From NCBI GenBank assembly GCA_028284665.1, contig JANQRG010000035.1:186001-250000 (forward strand): a stretch of DNA of 64,000 bases, given 5' to 3'. The notes under the pieces are model-generated. The model did not search any database and was not told the DNA's origin. It saw only the letters and a list, made by a program, of their open reading frames with translations. The stretch is from Croceivirga sp. Lineage in GTDB: Bacteria; Bacteroidota; Bacteroidia; Flavobacteriales; Flavobacteriaceae. Both the position numbers and the translations under genes were made by a program. Positions 15,418-28,544 of the stretch are shown here, in pieces (positions within the stretch are counted from its first letter, which is position 1; every line of letters begins with the position of its first letter).

Positions 15418-17781
15418 ATGAAAAAATTGTTTTTCGTTGTATTACTGCTCCCGGTAACACTACTCGCCCAAAACAGATTTACGATTTCCGGAACGGTACA
15501 AACCGAAGATGGTCAACCTGTTGCTTTCGCCAATGTCGTCTTGAACAAAAACAACAAATATGCCGTAGCGGATCAAAACGGGCGTTTTGAAATCAAAAAC
15601 GTGCGTCGCGGCGATTATGGTATTACCATCAGCTCCCTGGGTTTCCAAACCATCACCCAAAACATCAATGTCGACCGGAATCTCGCCTTAGATTTTAGCC
15701 TAGTTGAAAACGTACAAAATCTAGATGCTGTGACCGTTGAAGCCAAAAAAGCCTCGACACAACAAGAAGAACGGGCAATCACTATTGGCAGCTTTGAATT
15801 GGCGGATGTCGTATCCCAAACCAATATTTTGGCCGATGCCGTGGATCGTATCTCCGGGGTTCGGATCAGACGTTCCGGTTCCCTGGGAGATGCAGCGGAT
15901 GTTTCCATTAATGGATTAAATGGTACCGCAATCCGCACCTTTATTGATGGCGTGCCGATTGAATTTTTGTTCCCCGGAACGGACATTGCTACCCTACCCT
16001 TAACCGGGATTAGAAGAGTAGATGTGTTCAAAGGGGTTTTACCAGTAGACATCGCTTCTGATGCCCTGGGTGGTGGGGTCAATATTATTACTGAGGAAAA
16101 TACGGTCAATAGAATACGGGCTTCATATAGTGTGGGCTCGTTTAACACCCATCTTGGAGACTTCAGTGCTACCCTAACCGATGGCAAGGAAAGCTTTGTG
16201 AAAATTACCGCCGGCATTAACTATTCTGATAATGACTACACCTTTGAAGCCCCTATTATCGTTTCAAATCCAAACAACGGGCAACTTATTGATGCTGGGA
16301 CAGCAAACATCAAAAGGTTCCACGACCTTTATCGCTTACAGTACAGTACCGCTACACTGGGAACCTACAACAAGAAATGGACGGATCATGCCGAAATTGC
16401 TTTTAACTACTTTGACACTTTTAGAGAATTTCAAAACAACCTGCGTATCTCCAATATCGCCATTGGGGAAGCCTTCGGGGAACGTGAAAACATCGCCATT
16501 GTAGCCAAATACGATAAGACGCTTATCAAAGACAAGCTAAAGCTACGGACGATTTCCAATTATAGCGATCTCTTCGTAAAGTTTGTGGATACTACGGCTA
16601 ACGATTATAACTGGTTGGGTGATGTTGTTAACCCCAATGGTCAGCGGGGTGAATTTCTCAACGGTACACCTTTACTTACCGAAACGACCACCAAAAGTTA
16701 TGTCAACAGAGTCACCCTCGATTGGCAATTAACGGAGAACAGCAGTCTGACCTTGAGTAACCTGTTAGCCCATCAGGATAGGGAGTTAAAGGATTTTGAC
16801 ATCGATAACCCCTCGGAATTTGGCCTCGCCCCGGACCAAAGGATCACCAAAGATATCGCCGGGTTACAATACGATAATGTCCTTTTTAATGAGGCCGTGG
16901 AGTTTTCAGCGGCTTTAAAATACTATACCTACAAATTAGTCGGGTTTAGTCCCTTAAATCAGGTCCCCATAGAGGATACTGAAGGGTTTTTGGGGTGGAA
17001 TGCCGGGGTAAAGTACCAGATTTTTGATGCCTTCGCTATTCGAGGGTCCTATGAACGCGGATTTTTAATTCCGGAGATCGTTCAGTTTGCAGGAGATGGG
17101 GCCAATATTGCTCCGAACGGGGAATTGCAACCGGAGGAAAGCGACAATTTTAACCTGGGATTCCGCTTTAATAAGCGTTTTAATGACGATTACCGGCTAA
17201 CCCTAACAGCAAACGGATTTCTACGACAGCAACGCAATTTTATCTTCATCGACGCTAATGCTGCACGACAGCAAAATGAAAACATCGGGGATATTGATTC
17301 ACAGGGATTTGAAGGGGAATTACAGTTCAATTTTCTGAAAAATTTTAATTGGAATACCAATGTCAGCTTTGTGGACAAAACCATAGAAGAATTTGCGGTT
17401 CAGACCGCCACTGACGACCTGATCGGTTCCCAATTACCCAATACGCCGCGATTCTTCTACAATACGGAACTTTCCTGGCAAACCGAAGATATTTTCAATA
17501 CCGGGGTAGGTGTTCGCCTTTATGGACTGTATACCCATGTTGACGTGTTTAACATACGACCCGTTTCCGATGGGGAAAATATTGACAATACGCCCGATGC
17601 CTTTGTGCCAGAGCAAGACCGCCTGGATTTTGGGGTGTCCTTAAGCCTGTTCGATAACAAAGTCACTGCGGCATTTAATGTAGTAAACATAACAGATGAG
17701 GACTTGTTTGACAATTTTAGTATTCCGAGACCCGGGCGCAATTTCAACTTTAAACTGATCTACGAGATTTCAAATTTTTAG
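15418..17781 (+). CDS. TonB-dependent receptor, iron-cluster type
   Basis: 787 residues. A signal peptide (ending LLAQ) is followed by a carboxypeptidase-regulatory-like domain (about 23-105, GTVQTEDGQPVAFANVVLNK), a plug (about 115-220, with ADAVDRISGVRIRRSGSLGD and VDVFKGVLPVDIASDALGGG) and a barrel that ends in KLIYEISNF. The plug has FKGVLPVD where many receptors have RGPQGTLYG, a form seen in Fe-related Bacteroidota receptors. It follows the PepSY gene and is followed after four bases by a DUF4374 lipoprotein gene, a standard receptor/lipoprotein pair. It likely imports a ferric siderophore or heme-like compound; the ligand is not determinable. Confidence 0.9.
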   Translation: MKKLFFVVLLLPVTLLAQNRFTISGTVQTEDGQPVAFANVVLNKNNKYAVADQNGRFEIKNVRRGDYGITISSLGFQTITQNINVDRNLALDFSLVENVQNLDAVTVEAKKASTQQEERAITIGSFELADVVSQTNILADAVDRISGVRIRRSGSLGDAADVSINGLNGTAIRTFIDGVPIEFLFPGTDIATLPLTGIRRVDVFKGVLPVDIASDALGGGVNIITEENTVNRIRASYSVGSFNTHLGDFSATLTDGKESFVKITAGINYSDNDYTFEAPIIVSNPNNGQLIDAGTANIKRFHDLYRLQYSTATLGTYNKKWTDHAEIAFNYFDTFREFQNNLRISNIAIGEAFGERENIAIVAKYDKTLIKDKLKLRTISNYSDLFVKFVDTTANDYNWLGDVVNPNGQRGEFLNGTPLLTETTTKSYVNRVTLDWQLTENSSLTLSNLLAHQDRELKDFDIDNPSEFGLAPDQRITKDIAGLQYDNVLFNEAVEFSAALKYYTYKLVGFSPLNQVPIEDTEGFLGWNAGVKYQIFDAFAIRGSYERGFLIPEIVQFAGDGANIAPNGELQPEESDNFNLGFRFNKRFNDDYRLTLTANGFLRQQRNFIFIDANAARQQNENIGDIDSQGFEGELQFNFLKNFNWNTNVSFVDKTIEEFAVQTATDDLIGSQLPNTPRFFYNTELSWQTEDIFNTGVGVRLYGLYTHVDVFNIRPVSDGENIDNTPDAFVPEQDRLDFGVSLSLFDNKVTAAFNVVNITDEDLFDNFSIPRPGRNFNFKLIYEISNF

Positions 17782-17785
17782 TACT

Positions 17786-19150
17786 ATGAAAACGAATTTT
17801 AAAACCATTTTTGGTCTTATAACTGCATTTGTGCTGGTGCTGGCATGTGAGCCCGAAGAAGTAGTTACAGAGATAGTAGTAACACAAACCGAGGATCCTA
17901 CCCCTCCCGAAGAAGTGCCCTTTAAAACCTCCGGGTTTGTGGCCGCTTCCATCCTTAGCACGCCTACTTCCTTTTCGTATTTCACGAATTATACCGAGGA
18001 ATTACCCACTGGCAACCTGGATTTGACCACGAATACCTCCAGTTCCTTTAGCGGGTATTTTCCCCAGACGATTTATAAGAATTTTGGATTCGGGGCCTCT
18101 TTGGATTCGGACAACCTGGAACTGAATCGTTATGCGGTGGATAACGAATCCGGAAGGATCATTAAAGCCGGTTCCATTCCTTTGGCGGCTAACTTAAGTC
18201 AGGTGTTGATTATCGATGACAATACTGCAGTATATACCATATTTGATACGCCAAGCCTTTTTCTCTTTAACCCGTCAACCATGCAGTTCATTCAGGAAAT
18301 CCCGATGCCTGATGCGGTTCAGCTAGAGGTGTTACCTGACCAAACCAATTCCTATTTTCACATCATTTATCGCCCTCAGGACAACAAAGTCTTTTTGCCT
18401 CTCACAACCAATTCGAATGTTTCCCCTCAATTCTACGATGCTACCGACATCTATGTGGAAGTGGTGGACCTGGGGTCACGTTCCTGGGAAAAAACCGCGG
18501 TGTTTACCGGAGCGACCTACCCCTTAACGCGTGGTATGGAGAATCCCCTGGTGGATGAGCAAGGGAATGTCTATTTACTGACCCAAGGGCAGTACAGTTT
18601 GGATTTCCAGTTTGGCCCTACCGCCCCGCCAAGTTCCCGCCCACAGATCTTGAAAATTCCATCCGGAAGTACTGATTTTGATCCCGACTATGCCTTCAAT
18701 CCGGTTAACTTTTTAGGGTTTCAAAATTCGGTAGCGCAATTGTGCACCGGTTCGATCTATGGCGAAAATGGTATTGCCTATGCGGTAATGACAGCGGAAC
18801 CTGACGTCCCCCGGGTGAACGAGTTGTTAGGCTTATTGGCCACTGGAACGATCACGGATGCTGAGTTTAATGAGTTAGTTGGTTTGGTAACCAACAGTCC
18901 GAATATGAAATGGACCCGAATTGATTTGAATGCACAAACCGCAGAGGTCATTGGAGATATCCCTACTTCCGCTGGCTTTGTATATCCCTTTTCCTATAAA
19001 TCTAATGGAAGGTTCTATTTCCAGGTATTTAACCCGGATCAAGGCGTTAATGGCTATTTTGAATACGATCCTACCACAAACACCAGTGACAGTATCTTTA
19101 ATATTACGGCTGGTGGTGTAGCCACGCAATTGTTTATTTTGGAAGACTAA
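17786..19150 (+). CDS. DUF4374 family surface lipoprotein
   Basis: 454 residues. The N-terminus is a lipoprotein signal peptide with lipobox LVLAC (Cys about residue 20) followed by an acidic linker (EPEE), which in Bacteroidota can direct lipoproteins to the cell surface. The rest is beta-rich, consistent with the seven-bladed-propeller-like DUF4374 fold. Family members co-occur with TonB receptors and PepSY proteins, as here, and probably capture or hand over the ligand in the way SusD partners SusC. It starts four bases after the receptor stop and is followed by a terminator. Confidence 0.82.
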   Translation: MKTNFKTIFGLITAFVLVLACEPEEVVTEIVVTQTEDPTPPEEVPFKTSGFVAASILSTPTSFSYFTNYTEELPTGNLDLTTNTSSSFSGYFPQTIYKNFGFGASLDSDNLELNRYAVDNESGRIIKAGSIPLAANLSQVLIIDDNTAVYTIFDTPSLFLFNPSTMQFIQEIPMPDAVQLEVLPDQTNSYFHIIYRPQDNKVFLPLTTNSNVSPQFYDATDIYVEVVDLGSRSWEKTAVFTGATYPLTRGMENPLVDEQGNVYLLTQGQYSLDFQFGPTAPPSSRPQILKIPSGSTDFDPDYAFNPVNFLGFQNSVAQLCTGSIYGENGIAYAVMTAEPDVPRVNELLGLLATGTITDAEFNELVGLVTNSPNMKWTRIDLNAQTAEVIGDIPTSAGFVYPFSYKSNGRFYFQVFNPDQGVNGYFEYDPTTNTSDSIFNITAGGVATQLFILED

Positions 19151-19211: not shown

Positions 19212-19441
19212 GTTGCGCTATATACCTACAAATGTCATTTCGAAGAAGCGGAGCGATTGCCTGCCCACCTCCAGTGGGCCTGTCCCCCTCTGGTGGAAGA
19301 AATCCCATGCGGGAAACACAAGGTAGAATTAGGGAAAAACCCCAGTTTTTTGCGGGTTTTCTGTAATGGATTTTAAAGGTTGTTCCTTATATTCGAATCC
19401 TTAACTTACTCCCCTCAAATGCAATTAAAATTATTTTGCAG

Positions 19442-19460
19442 ATATGATCATTGATCATAT
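19442..19460. repeat. 19-bp perfect palindrome upstream of the defence operon
   Basis: ATATGATCA, a central T, then TGATCATAT. Located about 195 bp before the methyltransferase start. It could be an operator, a methylation-sensitive control site or the hairpin of a lost element. Confidence 0.4.
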
Positions 19461-19654: not shown

Positions 19655-21001
19655 ATGAGATTTATTGACCTATTTGCTGGGCTTGGAGGATTCCATAAGG
19701 CATTACATGATCTTGGACACGAGTGTGTTTTTGCAAGTGAAATAGACCCAATACTTCAACAGACATACAAAGAGAATTGGGGTATTGAACCCGTTGGTGA
19801 CATTAGGAAAATTGTTGAAACTGACATTGACAGTATTCCTTCACACGACATATTATGCGCAGGTTTTCCATGTCAACCCTTTTCTAAAGCAGGAAAACAA
19901 CAAGGACGAAACGACACAGAGAGGGGAACATTGTTTGACGAAATAGTTAAGATTTTAGCACATAGAGAGCCAGACTACTTTATACTTGAAAATGTGCCTT
20001 TCATCGCAAAACATGATAATGAGGAAACATGGAAATATATGCAATCTCGTTTTGAAGAACTTGGCTATGAGGTTGACCACAAAAATTACTCTCCTCATCA
20101 CTTTGGTGTACCACAACACAGATTAAGGATTTTTATAGTTGGCAGTCGGAAAGGACTAGACTATTTCCAATTTACTTCAATTGACGAGCAAACAACATTG
20201 TTAACGGACATCAAACAATTTATTGATGAAAAGCCTAAGAACTACAAAGCGCTTCCAAAAGTGAATCAAAACGTGCTCAAACTATGGCAAGAGTTTCTTT
20301 CAGCTATTCCTAAAGAAACTAAGGTTCCTGGCTTTCCAATTTGGGGGATGGAATTTGGTGCGACATACCCTTATGAATGGCCCTATCCTTATAAAATGTC
20401 TGCTGAAAGATTAGGTGAGTTTAAGGGCAATTTTGGCATCTCATTAAAAGGAATGGCAAAAAAAAAACAGCTAGTAAATCTTCCAAGCTATGCCCGCACC
20501 AGAAAGAAATTTCCAGACTGGAAAAAACGCTGGATTAGTTATAATCGACAGTTTTACCAAGACAACGAAAAATTTATCAAAAAAGCAGTTGACCAAATCG
20601 CTCTATTACCTCATCAAAGTTGGCAGAAACTAGAATGGAACGTGGGTGACAGTGAAAGAACTATCAAAAAGTACATATTGCAGTTTCGCGCTTCCGGGGT
20701 TCGCGTTAAAAACACTGATTTCTTTCCATCTTTGGTTTGTACTAAAACACAGGTCCCAATAATCGGTTGGAAAAACAGATACATCACCAAAGAAGAAGGA
20801 CTTAAACTCCAATCACTTGATGGTCTGCAGAATCTACCAGAATTTGATAATGCTACTTTCAAGGCATTGGGTAACGCAGTAAACGCCAAGATTGTCAAAC
20901 TAATTGCCGAGCAGCTAATACAAGAACAATTTCAAAAAGAACTGAATGGCAAAGCTATTCTTCCTGAAATTGAAAAATTTAAACAACCTGTGACGCAATG
21001 A
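19655..21001 (+). CDS. DNA cytosine-5 methyltransferase of a MORC/Z1-type R-M system
   Basis: 448 residues. All key C5-methylase motifs are present in order: motif I DLFAGLGGF (5-13), motif IV GFPCQPFSKAG (catalytic Cys73), motif VI ENVPFI (112-117), motif VIII QHRLRIFIVGSR, and motif X KALGNAVNAKIVKLI near the C-terminus. The variable region between VIII and IX is long (about 200 residues), consistent with a target-recognition domain; the recognition sequence cannot be read. It is the first of four overlapping genes, sharing ATGA with the next. It presumably marks host DNA so that the nuclease genes downstream spare it. Base composition looks lower in G+C than the iron cluster upstream, suggesting transfer. 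Confidence 0.93.
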   Translation: MRFIDLFAGLGGFHKALHDLGHECVFASEIDPILQQTYKENWGIEPVGDIRKIVETDIDSIPSHDILCAGFPCQPFSKAGKQQGRNDTERGTLFDEIVKILAHREPDYFILENVPFIAKHDNEETWKYMQSRFEELGYEVDHKNYSPHHFGVPQHRLRIFIVGSRKGLDYFQFTSIDEQTTLLTDIKQFIDEKPKNYKALPKVNQNVLKLWQEFLSAIPKETKVPGFPIWGMEFGATYPYEWPYPYKMSAERLGEFKGNFGISLKGMAKKKQLVNLPSYARTRKKFPDWKKRWISYNRQFYQDNEKFIKKAVDQIALLPHQSWQKLEWNVGDSERTIKKYILQFRASGVRVKNTDFFPSLVCTKTQVPIIGWKNRYITKEEGLKLQSLDGLQNLPEFDNATFKALGNAVNAKIVKLIAEQLIQEQFQKELNGKAILPEIEKFKQPVTQ

Positions 21002-22557
21002 CTAAAACGGAAAAGGTAAATATTCGTCCACAGGTTCATATCCTATCCGTTCTCAAATTTTTGGAATATGAAACTTGGTTTGCACTAGCTGAATTCGTTG
21101 ATAATTCCATAGCAAGCTACCAGCTTTATGAAAAGGAATTAAATGTCATGCATGGTGACGGCTTCCAATTAGAGGTTAACATCGAAATTGACCAACATAA
21201 CAACAAAATAACAATCCGTGACAATGCTGCTGGAATTCATAAAAAAGATTATCGAAGAGCATTCCGAGCTGCGGAAATACCTCCTGACACATCTGGCCTC
21301 TCGGAATTTGGAATGGGGATGAAATCAGCGGCTTGTTGGTTCGCAGATGAATGGAGTGTACGTACCACTGCACTTGGTGAATCAAATGAAAAAACCGTTC
21401 GATTTGAAATGACCAAAATCTTTGAGGATAAACTTGAAGAATTGGATGTATCGATAGAGCAATGTGATAAGAATCACCACTACACAATAATTGAACTTCT
21501 TAATGTAAATAAAATCCCAAGGAGGAGAGGGTTAGGAAAGGTAAAGGAACATCTAAAGAGTATTTATCGTGAATTTATAAGAAAAGGCACGCTAACACTT
21601 AAAGTTGACAATGAAGAATTACTCTACCAAAACCCAAAGATTCTAAGAGTCCCAAGATATGATGAGCCTGATGGAGAGCCTGTTCTATGGCGCAAGGAAA
21701 TCGATTTTCCAATTGAAGAAGGTTTAAGAGTTCATGGGTTTGTGGCAATCCGTGAAAAGGCGTCAACTTCACAAGCAGGCTTTGCCTTATTCAGAAGGGA
21801 TAGGGTCATTGAGGGCAGTTTCGATAACGGTTTCCGCCCTGAGTTCATATTTGGCAACCCAAATAGCTTTCGTTATCAAAGAGTTTTTGGAGAACTGCAT
21901 CTTGAAGGATTTAAGGTAACCTTCACCAAGAAAGGCATACAATGGGATGAAAACCTTGATATTTTCTTGCGTTTGCTCAAAGATGATATCAGTGGTAAAG
22001 CCTTTCCCCTCCTACAGCAATCAGAACAATACAGGGTTCGTGCAACTGAAAAGGAATACAAGTCGACAAAAAAAGCATTAGACCAAACTGTTAACGACTT
22101 GGAAAAAAATGCACCCGCAGCCATCATACAGGTGCGAGAATCATCAGGCAATGCCAAGCCTGAACAAGAAGAACTAGTTCAAACTGAAAAAGCTATCCAT
22201 CGGGATTTTGAAGTCCGATTCAATCGAGTTACATGGAAAATATCAGTTGAACTTTCATACGACCCTTCATTAAAAGAACTACTTGAAGTTGGCGACCACC
22301 TGATTAATGAAAAAAGCGAAAGTGCCGCTATTAGACAAATAGGTATTCGTCTTTCCCTTACTCACCCGTTTATGGTTCAGTTCGTTGGAGTTGACAATGC
22401 AAAAGTGGAACCAGTACTTCGTATGTCCGCAGCTCTTGGTCTGTCAGAGGTAATTGCAAAAGAGAGCGGTGCGAAGACACAGGGAGAGATAAGAAGAAAT
22501 TTTAATGAACTAATTAGTTGCCTTTCAAAAACCAACATCAATGAGCGAAACAGTTGA
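20998..22557 (+). CDS. GHKL ATPase, MORC/MutL-like, of R-M system
   Basis: 519 residues. The N-terminal 200 residues form a GHKL (HATPase_c_3) domain: motif 1 AEFVDNSIAS (31-40, catalytic Glu and metal-binding Asn), motif 2 DNAAGI (75-80) and motif 3 EFGMGMKSA (103-111). The middle is an S5-like transducer region, and the C-terminal 150 residues have no recognised motif. Such ATPases dimerise on ATP binding and act as clamps on DNA; in restriction systems of this type they were identified as the bacterial relatives of eukaryotic MORC proteins. It overlaps the methylase by 4 bp and the Z1 gene by 17 bp, so expression is coupled. Confidence 0.87.
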   Translation: MTKTEKVNIRPQVHILSVLKFLEYETWFALAEFVDNSIASYQLYEKELNVMHGDGFQLEVNIEIDQHNNKITIRDNAAGIHKKDYRRAFRAAEIPPDTSGLSEFGMGMKSAACWFADEWSVRTTALGESNEKTVRFEMTKIFEDKLEELDVSIEQCDKNHHYTIIELLNVNKIPRRRGLGKVKEHLKSIYREFIRKGTLTLKVDNEELLYQNPKILRVPRYDEPDGEPVLWRKEIDFPIEEGLRVHGFVAIREKASTSQAGFALFRRDRVIEGSFDNGFRPEFIFGNPNSFRYQRVFGELHLEGFKVTFTKKGIQWDENLDIFLRLLKDDISGKAFPLLQQSEQYRVRATEKEYKSTKKALDQTVNDLEKNAPAAIIQVRESSGNAKPEQEELVQTEKAIHRDFEVRFNRVTWKISVELSYDPSLKELLEVGDHLINEKSESAAIRQIGIRLSLTHPFMVQFVGVDNAKVEPVLRMSAALGLSEVIAKESGAKTQGEIRRNFNELISCLSKTNINERNS

Positions 22558-24820
22558 AATACAGGAACAGTCAACCAACGACTCTTGGCAACCTTTCGTT
22601 GGTGATGAGACAATTGGTCTTTTAAGGACTAAAGGGTTTTCTAACCCTGATGGCTCACTAAACGAATCAGGCAATAGAATTCTTGACGAAACGTATCGTG
22701 TGATGCAGGCATGCGGAAATCCATCAGTAGGCGAAAACTATGATACCGGTATTGTTATTGGCTATGTACAAAGTGGAAAGACACTTTCCTTTACCACACT
22801 TACAGCATTAGCCCGAGACAATAACTATCGGGTTGTAATTGTAATTGCTGGTACTTCTGTTAATCTTGTTAACCAATCTACCGAGCGCTTGCGGAGAGAT
22901 TTACGAGTAAACGACCGCTTTGGTTTAGACCAAAAATGGGCTTTGTTCAAAAATCCTGATAGCGCAGAAGAATTCGACCAACTTGAAATGCTTCTTGACC
23001 AGTGGCGTGACCCTCAATATCCAAATGATCGATGCAGAACCGCATTACTCACGGTGATGAAGAATGGTCCTCGGCTAAGAAATATTACTCAATTATTGAG
23101 CGGGTTGAATTTAGAAGAGGTTCCTACATTGATCATTGATGATGAGGGCGACCAAGCCAGCCTTAACACCCGAGCGCGACAAGCAGCAAGGGAGGGTATT
23201 GATATCGAAGACCTTTCAGAAAATGAAGTTTCAACAATTTACAGAAGAATAAATGGTCTTAGGGCGATTTTTCCTCACCATACATTTCTTCAATATACAG
23301 CCACCCCGCAAGCTAACCTGTTTATCAATATTGTTGATAGGCTGTCACCCAATTTCATTAAGCTACTCACACCAGGTGCGGAATATACAGGAGGGATTCA
23401 GTTCTTCAGGGAGAACCCTCATTTAATTGAAGAAATCCCTTTGAATGATATACCAACCGCAACGAACCCACTACAACAACCACCGGAAAGTCTTATACGT
23501 GCCGTTCAAACATTCTTCTTGGGCGTCGTAGCAGGAGAAATACAAAGAGACCAGCAAAATCGATCAATGATTGTTCATCCATCAAGGCTGCAAGAAGACC
23601 ATAGCACCTATTTCAATTGGGTAAGGGGTATGAGCCAAAGTTGGGCAAGGTTGCTCGAAAGTGATGATGAAACTGAGAAGAATCAATTGCTTGCCGAGTT
23701 CAGGCAGATATACATTGATCTAAATCTCACAGTAGGCGATTCACTTCCACTATTTGAAGACCTTACTGGGCATCATTTAATACATGTCATCAAATATACT
23801 CCGATAATTGAAGTCAATTCAAGAAGAGGCTCCACTCCGCAAATTCCATGGCAGAACAACTATTCCTGGATTCTCGTAGGAGGTCAATCAATGGACAGGG
23901 GCTTTACAGTTGAAGGACTAACTGTTACTTACATGCCAAGAAACTTAGGTGTTGGCAACGTCGATACTGTGCAGCAGAGGGCAAGATTTTTCGGATACAA
24001 AAGGGGGTACATCAACTATTGTAGAGTGTTTCTCGACCCAATTACTATTGACGCATACAACAGCATTATTGAACATGAACAAGATGTCCGCAATCGCCTT
24101 GAAGAATATGACATCAACAATAGGAACTTGAATGAGTTTGAGAGGGAAGTCGTACTAAATCGAATGCTGCGTTTAACCAGAGCTAATATTCTATATGATG
24201 ATGTGGATAGGGATAGATTTGAAGAATGGTATCGAATTCATGCGCCCCATGACACCTATAGCTTAATAAAATCAAATCGTGACTCTGTGTTTGAGTTTCT
24301 AAATACAAGAGAATCGCAGTTCCAAGAAAGCGATGGCCATCCTGACCGGACCAACGAACAAAAACACTTAGTTACTATACTGAGCGTTGCAGACTGTTTG
24401 AAAAATCTATTGAATAAACTGAAATTCACTCGAGACAGCGATTCGGCTTCTTATTCCAGTTTGAGAGGTGTCTTACAAGGTCATTTAGAAGAGTTTCCGA
24501 ATGAAGATTGCCTTATCTATTTAATGAGTGCACGAAGCATTATCGATTGGACGAGAAGAACCCGTAGATTGAATCGAAATGACGAATTACAACAGTTGTT
24601 TCAAGGTAGGCAACCAACACGGGCAAACCAGCAATATCAAATCGGTGAAGTGTACCCAGGAGACCGAGAAATTAAGGATCAGAATAGACTGACCATTCAA
24701 ATTCACCTGCTGAATATCAGAGATTCGGAATATATGGACGTTCCAACATTGGCAATATGGATTCCAGAGCACATTAGCAAAGACATAATACGACAAGACA
24801 ACGACATTAACGGTGCATGA
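22541..24820 (+). CDS. Z1-domain SF2-like ATPase of R-M system
   Basis: 759 residues. Walker A GYVQSGKT (74-81), Walker B with IDDEGDQAS (about 199-207) and ATPQANLF resemble helicase motifs I, II and III. The diagnostic Z1 segment lies in the second half: GGQSMDRGFTVEGLTVTYMP and QRARFFGYKRGY (about 478-489), equivalent to motifs V and VI. The Z1 domain occurs in operons with Dcm methylases and MORC-like ATPases and probably translocates on or remodels DNA for the nuclease. It overlaps its downstream neighbour by four bases. A start at 22541 inside the end of the ATPase gene gives the full Walker A region. Confidence 0.88.
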   Translation: MSETVEIQEQSTNDSWQPFVGDETIGLLRTKGFSNPDGSLNESGNRILDETYRVMQACGNPSVGENYDTGIVIGYVQSGKTLSFTTLTALARDNNYRVVIVIAGTSVNLVNQSTERLRRDLRVNDRFGLDQKWALFKNPDSAEEFDQLEMLLDQWRDPQYPNDRCRTALLTVMKNGPRLRNITQLLSGLNLEEVPTLIIDDEGDQASLNTRARQAAREGIDIEDLSENEVSTIYRRINGLRAIFPHHTFLQYTATPQANLFINIVDRLSPNFIKLLTPGAEYTGGIQFFRENPHLIEEIPLNDIPTATNPLQQPPESLIRAVQTFFLGVVAGEIQRDQQNRSMIVHPSRLQEDHSTYFNWVRGMSQSWARLLESDDETEKNQLLAEFRQIYIDLNLTVGDSLPLFEDLTGHHLIHVIKYTPIIEVNSRRGSTPQIPWQNNYSWILVGGQSMDRGFTVEGLTVTYMPRNLGVGNVDTVQQRARFFGYKRGYINYCRVFLDPITIDAYNSIIEHEQDVRNRLEEYDINNRNLNEFEREVVLNRMLRLTRANILYDDVDRDRFEEWYRIHAPHDTYSLIKSNRDSVFEFLNTRESQFQESDGHPDRTNEQKHLVTILSVADCLKNLLNKLKFTRDSDSASYSSLRGVLQGHLEEFPNEDCLIYLMSARSIIDWTRRTRRLNRNDELQQLFQGRQPTRANQQYQIGEVYPGDREIKDQNRLTIQIHLLNIRDSEYMDVPTLAIWIPEHISKDIIRQDNDINGA

Positions 24821-25800
24821 ATCTAATCGAACAGTTCTATACACTTGATTTCCCCTACAGCAATGATGAAAAAATACTCTGTGCTTCCAAAGTTGCGGGC
24901 TTCCCCCATTTTCGAGTTGCTGTAAATAATATGGGTAATCCTGTTATTCTGCTTTCTATTTCCAACCCTGTACGCAATCTGTCGCTTAAGAACTTCCGGC
25001 TTAAATATCTGGAACTAGCCCATAACATCGAGTGCAAGATTTCAGAAAATGGTAAGACCATTTTTGAGTCTTTTACCGTAATCACCTTTACCAGCAGTAA
25101 CCAAAACCTTCAGGAATATTTTCTCCGTATCTGTGAATCGCTTATTCGTTCGCTGAGGACTAAGCCAACCCAAGAACAAGTTATAGATTCGCTTAATAAG
25201 TTCATTGAGGTATTTCGAGCACTCAATGATACACCAACCAAAACCATTCAGGGCCTCTGGTCAGAGCTATTTGTCATTGACGTTGCAACCAACCCTGTGG
25301 CAATGCTTAACTATTGGCATAACATTCCTCAAGAACGTTTCGACTTTAATTCAGGAGAGGAAAAGATTGAAATAAAAAGCAGCAGAAACTATGAACGAAT
25401 CCACACGTTCTCAGCTGAACAACTCAATCCACCTATCAATACATCCATTCTAATTGGTTCAGTATTCATAAGGCCGAGCAGTTCAGGCAAGAGCATTCAA
25501 GACCTTGTTGACAGCATTACCGAAAAAGTCGAAGACTCCGTTGAATTGATTGACAAGGTCAACACCGTTATAATTCGAACACTTGGCAGTTCGCTTGAAC
25601 AATCGTTGAAAATGAAATTTGACTACCAAGTAGCAACTGAATCATTGAGGTTTTACCAATACGAGGACATCAAGAAAATTGAGCAAATCAGTATTCCAAC
25701 AGAAGTGACAGAAGTTCGCTACAAATCTGATATGACTGCAATTGAACATATCGAATTAAACAAATTAGATGATAAAGGAGAATTATTCAATGCTATCTAG
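24817..25800 (+). CDS. PD-(D/E)XK nuclease (DUF4420-like) of R-M system
   Basis: 327 residues. The likely active site is in the middle: GLWSELFVI (Glu about 150), RFDF (Asp about 176) and EIKSS (ExK about 185-187). This matches the 'PD-(D/E)XK motif protein' family (DUF4420) regularly found beside Z1 and MORC-like ATPase genes. It should supply the DNA-cutting activity. It is the last gene of the operon; the AIPR abortive-infection gene often found at the end of such operons is not present in the following 345 bp, and the next gene is an unrelated hydrolase. Confidence 0.82.
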   Translation: MNLIEQFYTLDFPYSNDEKILCASKVAGFPHFRVAVNNMGNPVILLSISNPVRNLSLKNFRLKYLELAHNIECKISENGKTIFESFTVITFTSSNQNLQEYFLRICESLIRSLRTKPTQEQVIDSLNKFIEVFRALNDTPTKTIQGLWSELFVIDVATNPVAMLNYWHNIPQERFDFNSGEEKIEIKSSRNYERIHTFSAEQLNPPINTSILIGSVFIRPSSSGKSIQDLVDSITEKVEDSVELIDKVNTVIIRTLGSSLEQSLKMKFDYQVATESLRFYQYEDIKKIEQISIPTEVTEVRYKSDMTAIEHIELNKLDDKGELFNAI

Positions 25801-26144
25801 CTAGCCCCTTTCTGGTGCGCGAATCCCTGCTTTAAGCAGGCAAGCGTTCGTGTACCTTTTGTTTTAACCAAGTACCACATCTGCAAAGCCCCACCAGAGG
25901 CGAGAATCCGGTAAACGTTAAAAAGTAGATTCCGCAATGCACCTGCCTGTCATGCCAAAGGCAGATAAATCGGCAGACAGGTGCGCAATGACAAGGCTTT
26001 GCATAGCGGCTTACAGGCGCCTAGCCCGCTTTCGTGGACCTTGGTAGTCCGTGGTTTTTGCTATCTTCCCAAAGCATTCGCTAACGCTGCAGGGGTAACC
26101 CCTCAAAAGAACCTCTGTGAAATACCTAACCAAAAGACCCAAAC
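25801..26144. other. Gene-free right flank of the defence island
   Basis: No gene seen. It holds two palindromic pieces: CCTGCTT-T-AAGCAGG (25826-25840), a possible weak terminator stem without a T run, and a longer hairpin with arms GCACCTGCCTGTC (25939-25951) and GCAGACAGGTGC (25973-25984). These look like dispersed intergenic repeats. No direct repeat matching the left flank was found by eye. Confidence 0.5.
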
Positions 26145-28544
26145 ATGAAAACCAAGTTCCAACAGATCGTTAAATGGTGTAAAGCTCAAATCAAAAGCAT
26201 TACTCCGGGAAACTCCGCTTTAAAAGGGGCCGCATGGGGCCTGTTGCTCGTAACCGGGCTACTTTGGCTGGTTTTCGCCATCCGGGTTACCGCCAACCTT
26301 AGCGACGGGTGGGTGCTCTTGTTGTTCCTTGGCTTTGTGTTAATAGCCATCCTAGCCGCCTATCTCACCCGATGGCTACTGCTACAGTTGGGAGATTTTC
26401 ACAAAGTATATCAACGGGCGCTTTTTATCGCCCTGCCCCTCCTGATCCTAATGAGCTTCGAATGGATGATACCGGTATTTCTGGCCCTGATGGCCTCGCT
26501 GTTGGGGGCGGCCCTTTGGGTATTGAAAAACACCGGGTTTCGGCAGCTCTCCCCCAGGAAGAAAGGGGTTACCCTGCTCGGCTTAGCGATAGGCCTTGGA
26601 GGCTTCATTGCCGCTGGGATAGGGTATAGTCGTACCGGTTTTGAAGTGGATCCCATTATTAATGCAGCGACCTCCGTTACTACCCCTGTTCCGTCACTTA
26701 TCGCACCTTCTCCTGCCGAAAAAGGCCCCTATACTGTAAAAACCTTGACCTACGGCAGTGGTAATGATCGTCACCGACCGGAGTTCGGGTCGGAAGTAGA
26801 CCTTACCACAGAAACGGTCAATGGGGTACCCTTTATTGATGATTGGGATGGTTTTGGTGGCTGGTGGCGTGAAAAGTACTGGGGCTTTGATTCCAGCGCT
26901 TTGCCCTTAAATGCCAGGGTATGGTACCCTGAAGGAGAAGGCCCTTTTCCACTCGCCCTTATTGTTCATGGCAACCATGGGATGCAGGACTATTCCGATG
27001 TGGGCTATGCCTATCTGGGCGAATTACTGGCTTCCAAAGGGATCATTTTAGCCTCGGTGGATGAGAATTTTATCAATGGGTCCTGGTCCAACATCTTTGG
27101 CGGATTGGATGAGGAAAACGATGCCCGCGGATGGCTGCTGCTGGAACACTTACGGCAATTTCATGAATGGAACACTACCGAAGGCCATCGGTTCCATCAG
27201 CAAATCGATACAGCTAACATCGCCTTGATCGGACACTCCCGAGGAGGCGAAGCCGTGGCCCATGCAGCGATGTTCAATACCCTCCCCTACTATCCGGACG
27301 ATGCGGCCATATCCTTTGATTATAACTATGCGATCCAGTCCATTGTGGCTATTGCTCCGGTGGACGGCCAGTACAAACCGGGAGACACCCGAACCACCTT
27401 TGACAACGTCGATTATTTTGTAATTCACGGTGCACAAGATGCCGATGTTACCTCTTTTATGGGTTCACAACAATATGAACGGGTGACGTTTAATGACAGT
27501 CTGTATTATTTTAAATCCGGGTTGTATGTCTACGGGGCTAATCATGGGCAATTCAATACCAGCTGGGGCAACAATGATACCGGCAATCCGTTCACGGGAA
27601 TGCTGAATTTGAAACAGCTGCTTTCTGCTGAAGATCAGCGAACCATTGCCGAGGTATACATCGGAGCCTTTTTAGACATCACGTTACAAAACAAAACCGA
27701 ATATATGCCCCTATTTCTGGATCCCAGAAAAGGTGCGGATTGGCTTCCTGAAACGATCTATTTGAGTCAGTTTGAAGACTCGAATTTAAGCGTGGTGGCC
27801 AATTTTGATGAAGACTTTGATGTGTCTACTATCACCCAACCCGAAGGAAACGTTACTACCGAAAACCTAACGGTGTGGAAGGAACAGGAGATACAATTAA
27901 AATGGCAGAAAAAGGGAAGTAGGGCACTTTTTGTAGGTTGGGACTATGATTTTGAGGAGAAGGAAGACACCATGGAATCCGTACCGGATTCGGTGATCGC
28001 CAGCTATACGATCAGCCTACCCCCTGTGGCCATTGACAGTACCGCCGCCTTGGTGTTTTCCATGGCGGAATCCAAGGAAGACGCCAACCCTAAAACATCG
28101 GGCAAATGGGTAACCAACGATGAAAACGGGGACGAGGACGAGGATGACGAAGAGGAAGAAGACGCTGAAGAAGACGCTGAAGAAGAAGAGGAGGATGAGG
28201 CGACGGAGGAGGAGGAAAAGGAAGAAGACAAGGATGAACCTAAGGAACCTATTGATCTTACCATTCAACTAAAAGACTCGCTCGGGCAACAGATCGCTTT
28301 CCCCTTGAGTCGGTTTTCGCCCTTACAACGGACCCTGGAGGTGGTCATTAACAAAACAGGGTTTATCACGAACGAGAAAGCCTCGGAAAAGGTCTATCAA
28401 ACCTTTTATTTCCCTTTTGAACAACTCCGGGAAACGCATCCCAATTTTGATTTTACCCGTATCACTACCTTGCGTTTTGTCTTTGACAAGAATGAAAAGG
28501 GTGTGATCTCGATAGATAACCTCGGGTTTATGAAACCCTTGTGA
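26145..28544 (+). CDS. Membrane-anchored alpha/beta hydrolase with acidic low-complexity tract
   Basis: 799 residues. About five hydrophobic helices fill residues 28-175. A hydrolase domain follows (about 195-520): LALIVHGNHGMQDYSDVGYA carries the oxyanion strand, GHSRGGEAV (about 363-371) is the nucleophile elbow with the catalytic Ser, and later Asp (VIHGAQDADVTSF) and His (YGANHGQFN) complete the triad. The layout resembles PAF-acetylhydrolase/chlorophyllase-like esterases. Residues about 660-705 are almost purely Asp/Glu, splitting a C-terminal beta-rich domain that ends in DNLGFMKPL. The substrate is unknown; location is the envelope. The G+C-rich codon use returns to the window's usual style after the defence island. 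Confidence 0.75.
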   Translation: MKTKFQQIVKWCKAQIKSITPGNSALKGAAWGLLLVTGLLWLVFAIRVTANLSDGWVLLLFLGFVLIAILAAYLTRWLLLQLGDFHKVYQRALFIALPLLILMSFEWMIPVFLALMASLLGAALWVLKNTGFRQLSPRKKGVTLLGLAIGLGGFIAAGIGYSRTGFEVDPIINAATSVTTPVPSLIAPSPAEKGPYTVKTLTYGSGNDRHRPEFGSEVDLTTETVNGVPFIDDWDGFGGWWREKYWGFDSSALPLNARVWYPEGEGPFPLALIVHGNHGMQDYSDVGYAYLGELLASKGIILASVDENFINGSWSNIFGGLDEENDARGWLLLEHLRQFHEWNTTEGHRFHQQIDTANIALIGHSRGGEAVAHAAMFNTLPYYPDDAAISFDYNYAIQSIVAIAPVDGQYKPGDTRTTFDNVDYFVIHGAQDADVTSFMGSQQYERVTFNDSLYYFKSGLYVYGANHGQFNTSWGNNDTGNPFTGMLNLKQLLSAEDQRTIAEVYIGAFLDITLQNKTEYMPLFLDPRKGADWLPETIYLSQFEDSNLSVVANFDEDFDVSTITQPEGNVTTENLTVWKEQEIQLKWQKKGSRALFVGWDYDFEEKEDTMESVPDSVIASYTISLPPVAIDSTAALVFSMAESKEDANPKTSGKWVTNDENGDEDEDDEEEEDAEEDAEEEEEDEATEEEEKEEDKDEPKEPIDLTIQLKDSLGQQIAFPLSRFSPLQRTLEVVINKTGFITNEKASEKVYQTFYFPFEQLRETHPNFDFTRITTLRFVFDKNEKGVISIDNLGFMKPL

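Follow-up and report, generated by a model that had tools for sequence, protein, structure and literature searches.

A conserved methylase, MORC ATPase, helicase and nuclease operon in Croceivirga that probably acts against unmarked DNA

What use would a bacterium have for a MORC-family ATPase that is encoded together with a DNA methylase, a helicase or motor protein and a nuclease? This question is raised by a compact four-protein operon (19655..25800, plus strand, as are all its genes) in a 64,000-nucleotide stretch of Croceivirga sp. (GCA_028284665.1, contig JANQRG010000035.1, positions 186,001 to 250,000), here called the window. The operon is genuine, well conserved and of a kind already known since its description in 2008, and it would probably mark the host's own DNA, with foreign DNA lacking the mark as the predicted target of cutting and a clamp-like ATPase as an aid.

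The genes are ordered methylase (M), MORC ATPase (gene 2), helicase/motor gene (gene 3) and nuclease (R), and this order is unchanged in the 64 complete sets found among the family loci compared, which bears out the coherence and the co-occurrence of the four genes that a first-pass annotation of the sequence had claimed. The methylase is exchangeable between family loci, yet is missing from none that was found; in two loci with full context (L077 and L109) no R and no substitute for it were noticed. The precedent that had been named also holds: the class, MORC operon type 3, was defined from gene neighbourhoods, and DNA looping was proposed for it (Iyer, Abhiman and Aravind 2008, PMC2292703). 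The available text of that paper reports no wet experiments, and no functional test of this operon kind was found in the literature.

Gene 2 (20998..22557) encodes a GHKL-S5 ATPase (residues 10-348), followed by a long helix (351-382) and a C-terminal alpha/beta domain (399-519). Its ATP-binding residues E32, D35, N36, D75, G79, G105, G107 and K109 are present in all 78 family MORC proteins, and the S5 motif GhXhhpXXRhl, given as MORC-specific in the text available of PMC2292703, is found in the window protein as GFALFRRDRVI (residues 261-271, 21778..21810) and in 71/78 of the family. Its fold lies nearest those of known MORCs, with SMCHD1, MORC2 and MORC3 as the top structural matches. What had been called a 'MORC-like' ATPase is thus, more firmly, a MORC-family GHKL-S5 ATPase related to human MORC proteins.

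The methylase (19655..21001, 448 amino acids) is a C5-cytosine DNA methyltransferase (Pfam DNA_methylase, 3.7e-68), with Cys73 in a PCQ motif (Cys73 codon at 19871-19873); Cys73, Gln74, Glu112, Asn113, Arg156 and Arg158 are invariant in the 73 aligned family proteins. Among solved structures it is matched best by M.HhaI entries (8.5e-43), only across residues 1-187, and the target-recognition region was set at about residues 175-340. At the other end of the operon, R (24817..25800) combines an N-terminal alpha/beta domain (about 1-125) with a PD-(D/E)XK nuclease domain (about 142-312), the fold that it resembles, while DUF4420 is its sole Pfam match at E 0.1 or better. R carries the E-D-ExK signature of the type 3 nuclease (Iyer 2008) as E150, D176 and E185-x-K187 (25264..25377). 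E150, D176 and K187 are invariant (76/76), and residue 185 is E in 68 proteins and D in eight; as the catalytic residues are thus kept throughout, the activity of R is under selection. The identities first assigned to the genes stand. Gene 3 (22541..24820) contains a motif (22760..22783) whose QSGKT is invariant in 82/82 proteins and a C-terminal helicase motif, DTVQQRARFFGYK (residues 475-487, 23963..24001), in which DTVQQRARFFG agrees with the published DThhQXuRhFG (Iyer 2008) at 10/11 positions, with Q where a hydrophobic residue is expected. The strict pattern occurs in none of the 82 family helicases, and a relaxed form, DTxxQ[RK]xRhFG, in 53.

If CglI and eukaryotic MORC2 are a guide, the GHKL clamp and the motor would present unmethylated DNA to the nuclease. 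It is also conceivable, though unlikely, that the operon is a defence of the MZA type, with the methylase as an accessory and an antiviral action that does not rely on cutting unmethylated DNA at specific sites; a phage sensor leading to cell death would be one example. MzaB, MzaC and MzaD are the nearest NCBIfam models of genes 2-4, and the accessible part of PMC9523054 describes MZA (mzaABCDE) as a defence system that has been validated; types I and II of that paper are likewise counted among the systems nearest to the operon. The scores lie below the equivalog cut-offs, at 23.5 vs 850 for MzaB, 120.5 vs 1500 for MzaC and 23.2 vs 420 for MzaD, and the AIPR (mzaE) profile matched none of the 84 family loci, 12 of which have cut-off flanks; it does match L024-L029. 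The S5 motif does not separate the family from MZA, because MZA-like ATPases carry the pattern too (4/4 checked, L026-L029); it also occurs in L033 and L035. A methylation-linked repair function in place of defence, as in MutL with Vsr, appears very improbable. In its favour, the pairing of a GHKL-S5 ATPase with a restriction endonuclease-fold nuclease resembles MutL and MutH, and a Vsr profile match lies at most 7 kb away in 13/72 loci, two of these 13 being confirmed by Pfam. The discrimination of unmarked DNA is retained as the probable function.

As to the surroundings, a TonB-dependent receptor and a 454-amino-acid protein with no Pfam match precede the operon (15418-19150), the latter having one weak partial match in 39 other genomes searched. 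Downstream (26145-28544) lies a predicted hydrolase with an Asp/Glu-rich stretch and a weak Chlorophyllase match under the Pfam cut-off; its homologues in four genomes of the genus are 76-78% identical, and the sequence preceding them is unmatched by the window's upstream genes. A 19-nucleotide inverted pair flanking the operon (19435-19453 and 25869-25887, 79% complementary) is presumed to be chance. In other family loci (L093, L095-L100, L106 and L114; Bacteroidota and one Spirochaetales) a fifth gene (233-762 amino acids) overlaps or abuts R directly downstream; the nine proteins group by sequence, with an MTaX1 domain at the N-terminus of each of the four that were scanned.

The operon lies outside the standard type I, II or III sets, as had been proposed. 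No BREX genes were found among eight window proteins scanned, and the Pfam search of R returned neither the B3 nor the PLD domain of the R proteins of CglI-like ATP-dependent restriction systems, CglI and NgoAVII being the ones compared (PMC4267653, PMC5737866). Another system compared combines an EcoRII-like enzyme with a methylase fused to a helix-turn-helix; MORC goes unmentioned in the available text on it. Relative to the published MORC operon type 3, the count of 64 complete sets and the lack of AIPR are measurements made here. The chief additions are a definition by four genes without AIPR, the grouping of gene 2 with eukaryotic MORCs on structural grounds, and the observation that the methylase is exchangeable and never found missing. 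With the ATPase modules of MORC2, MORC3, MORC4 and SMCHD1 the window protein shares the GHKL-S5 fold, the catalytic residues and the S5 motif, but unlike these it has its own C-terminal domain and an operon with methylase, motor and nuclease. MORC2 compacts DNA through ATP hydrolysis (PMC12216690, in the text available). The Shedu protein VcSduA, which contains a GHKL domain, directs a GHKL ATPase and a PD-(D/E)XK nuclease against phage, as the operon would, with both activities required, but it is a single fused protein of the paraMORC3 type (PMC12137116, in the text available).
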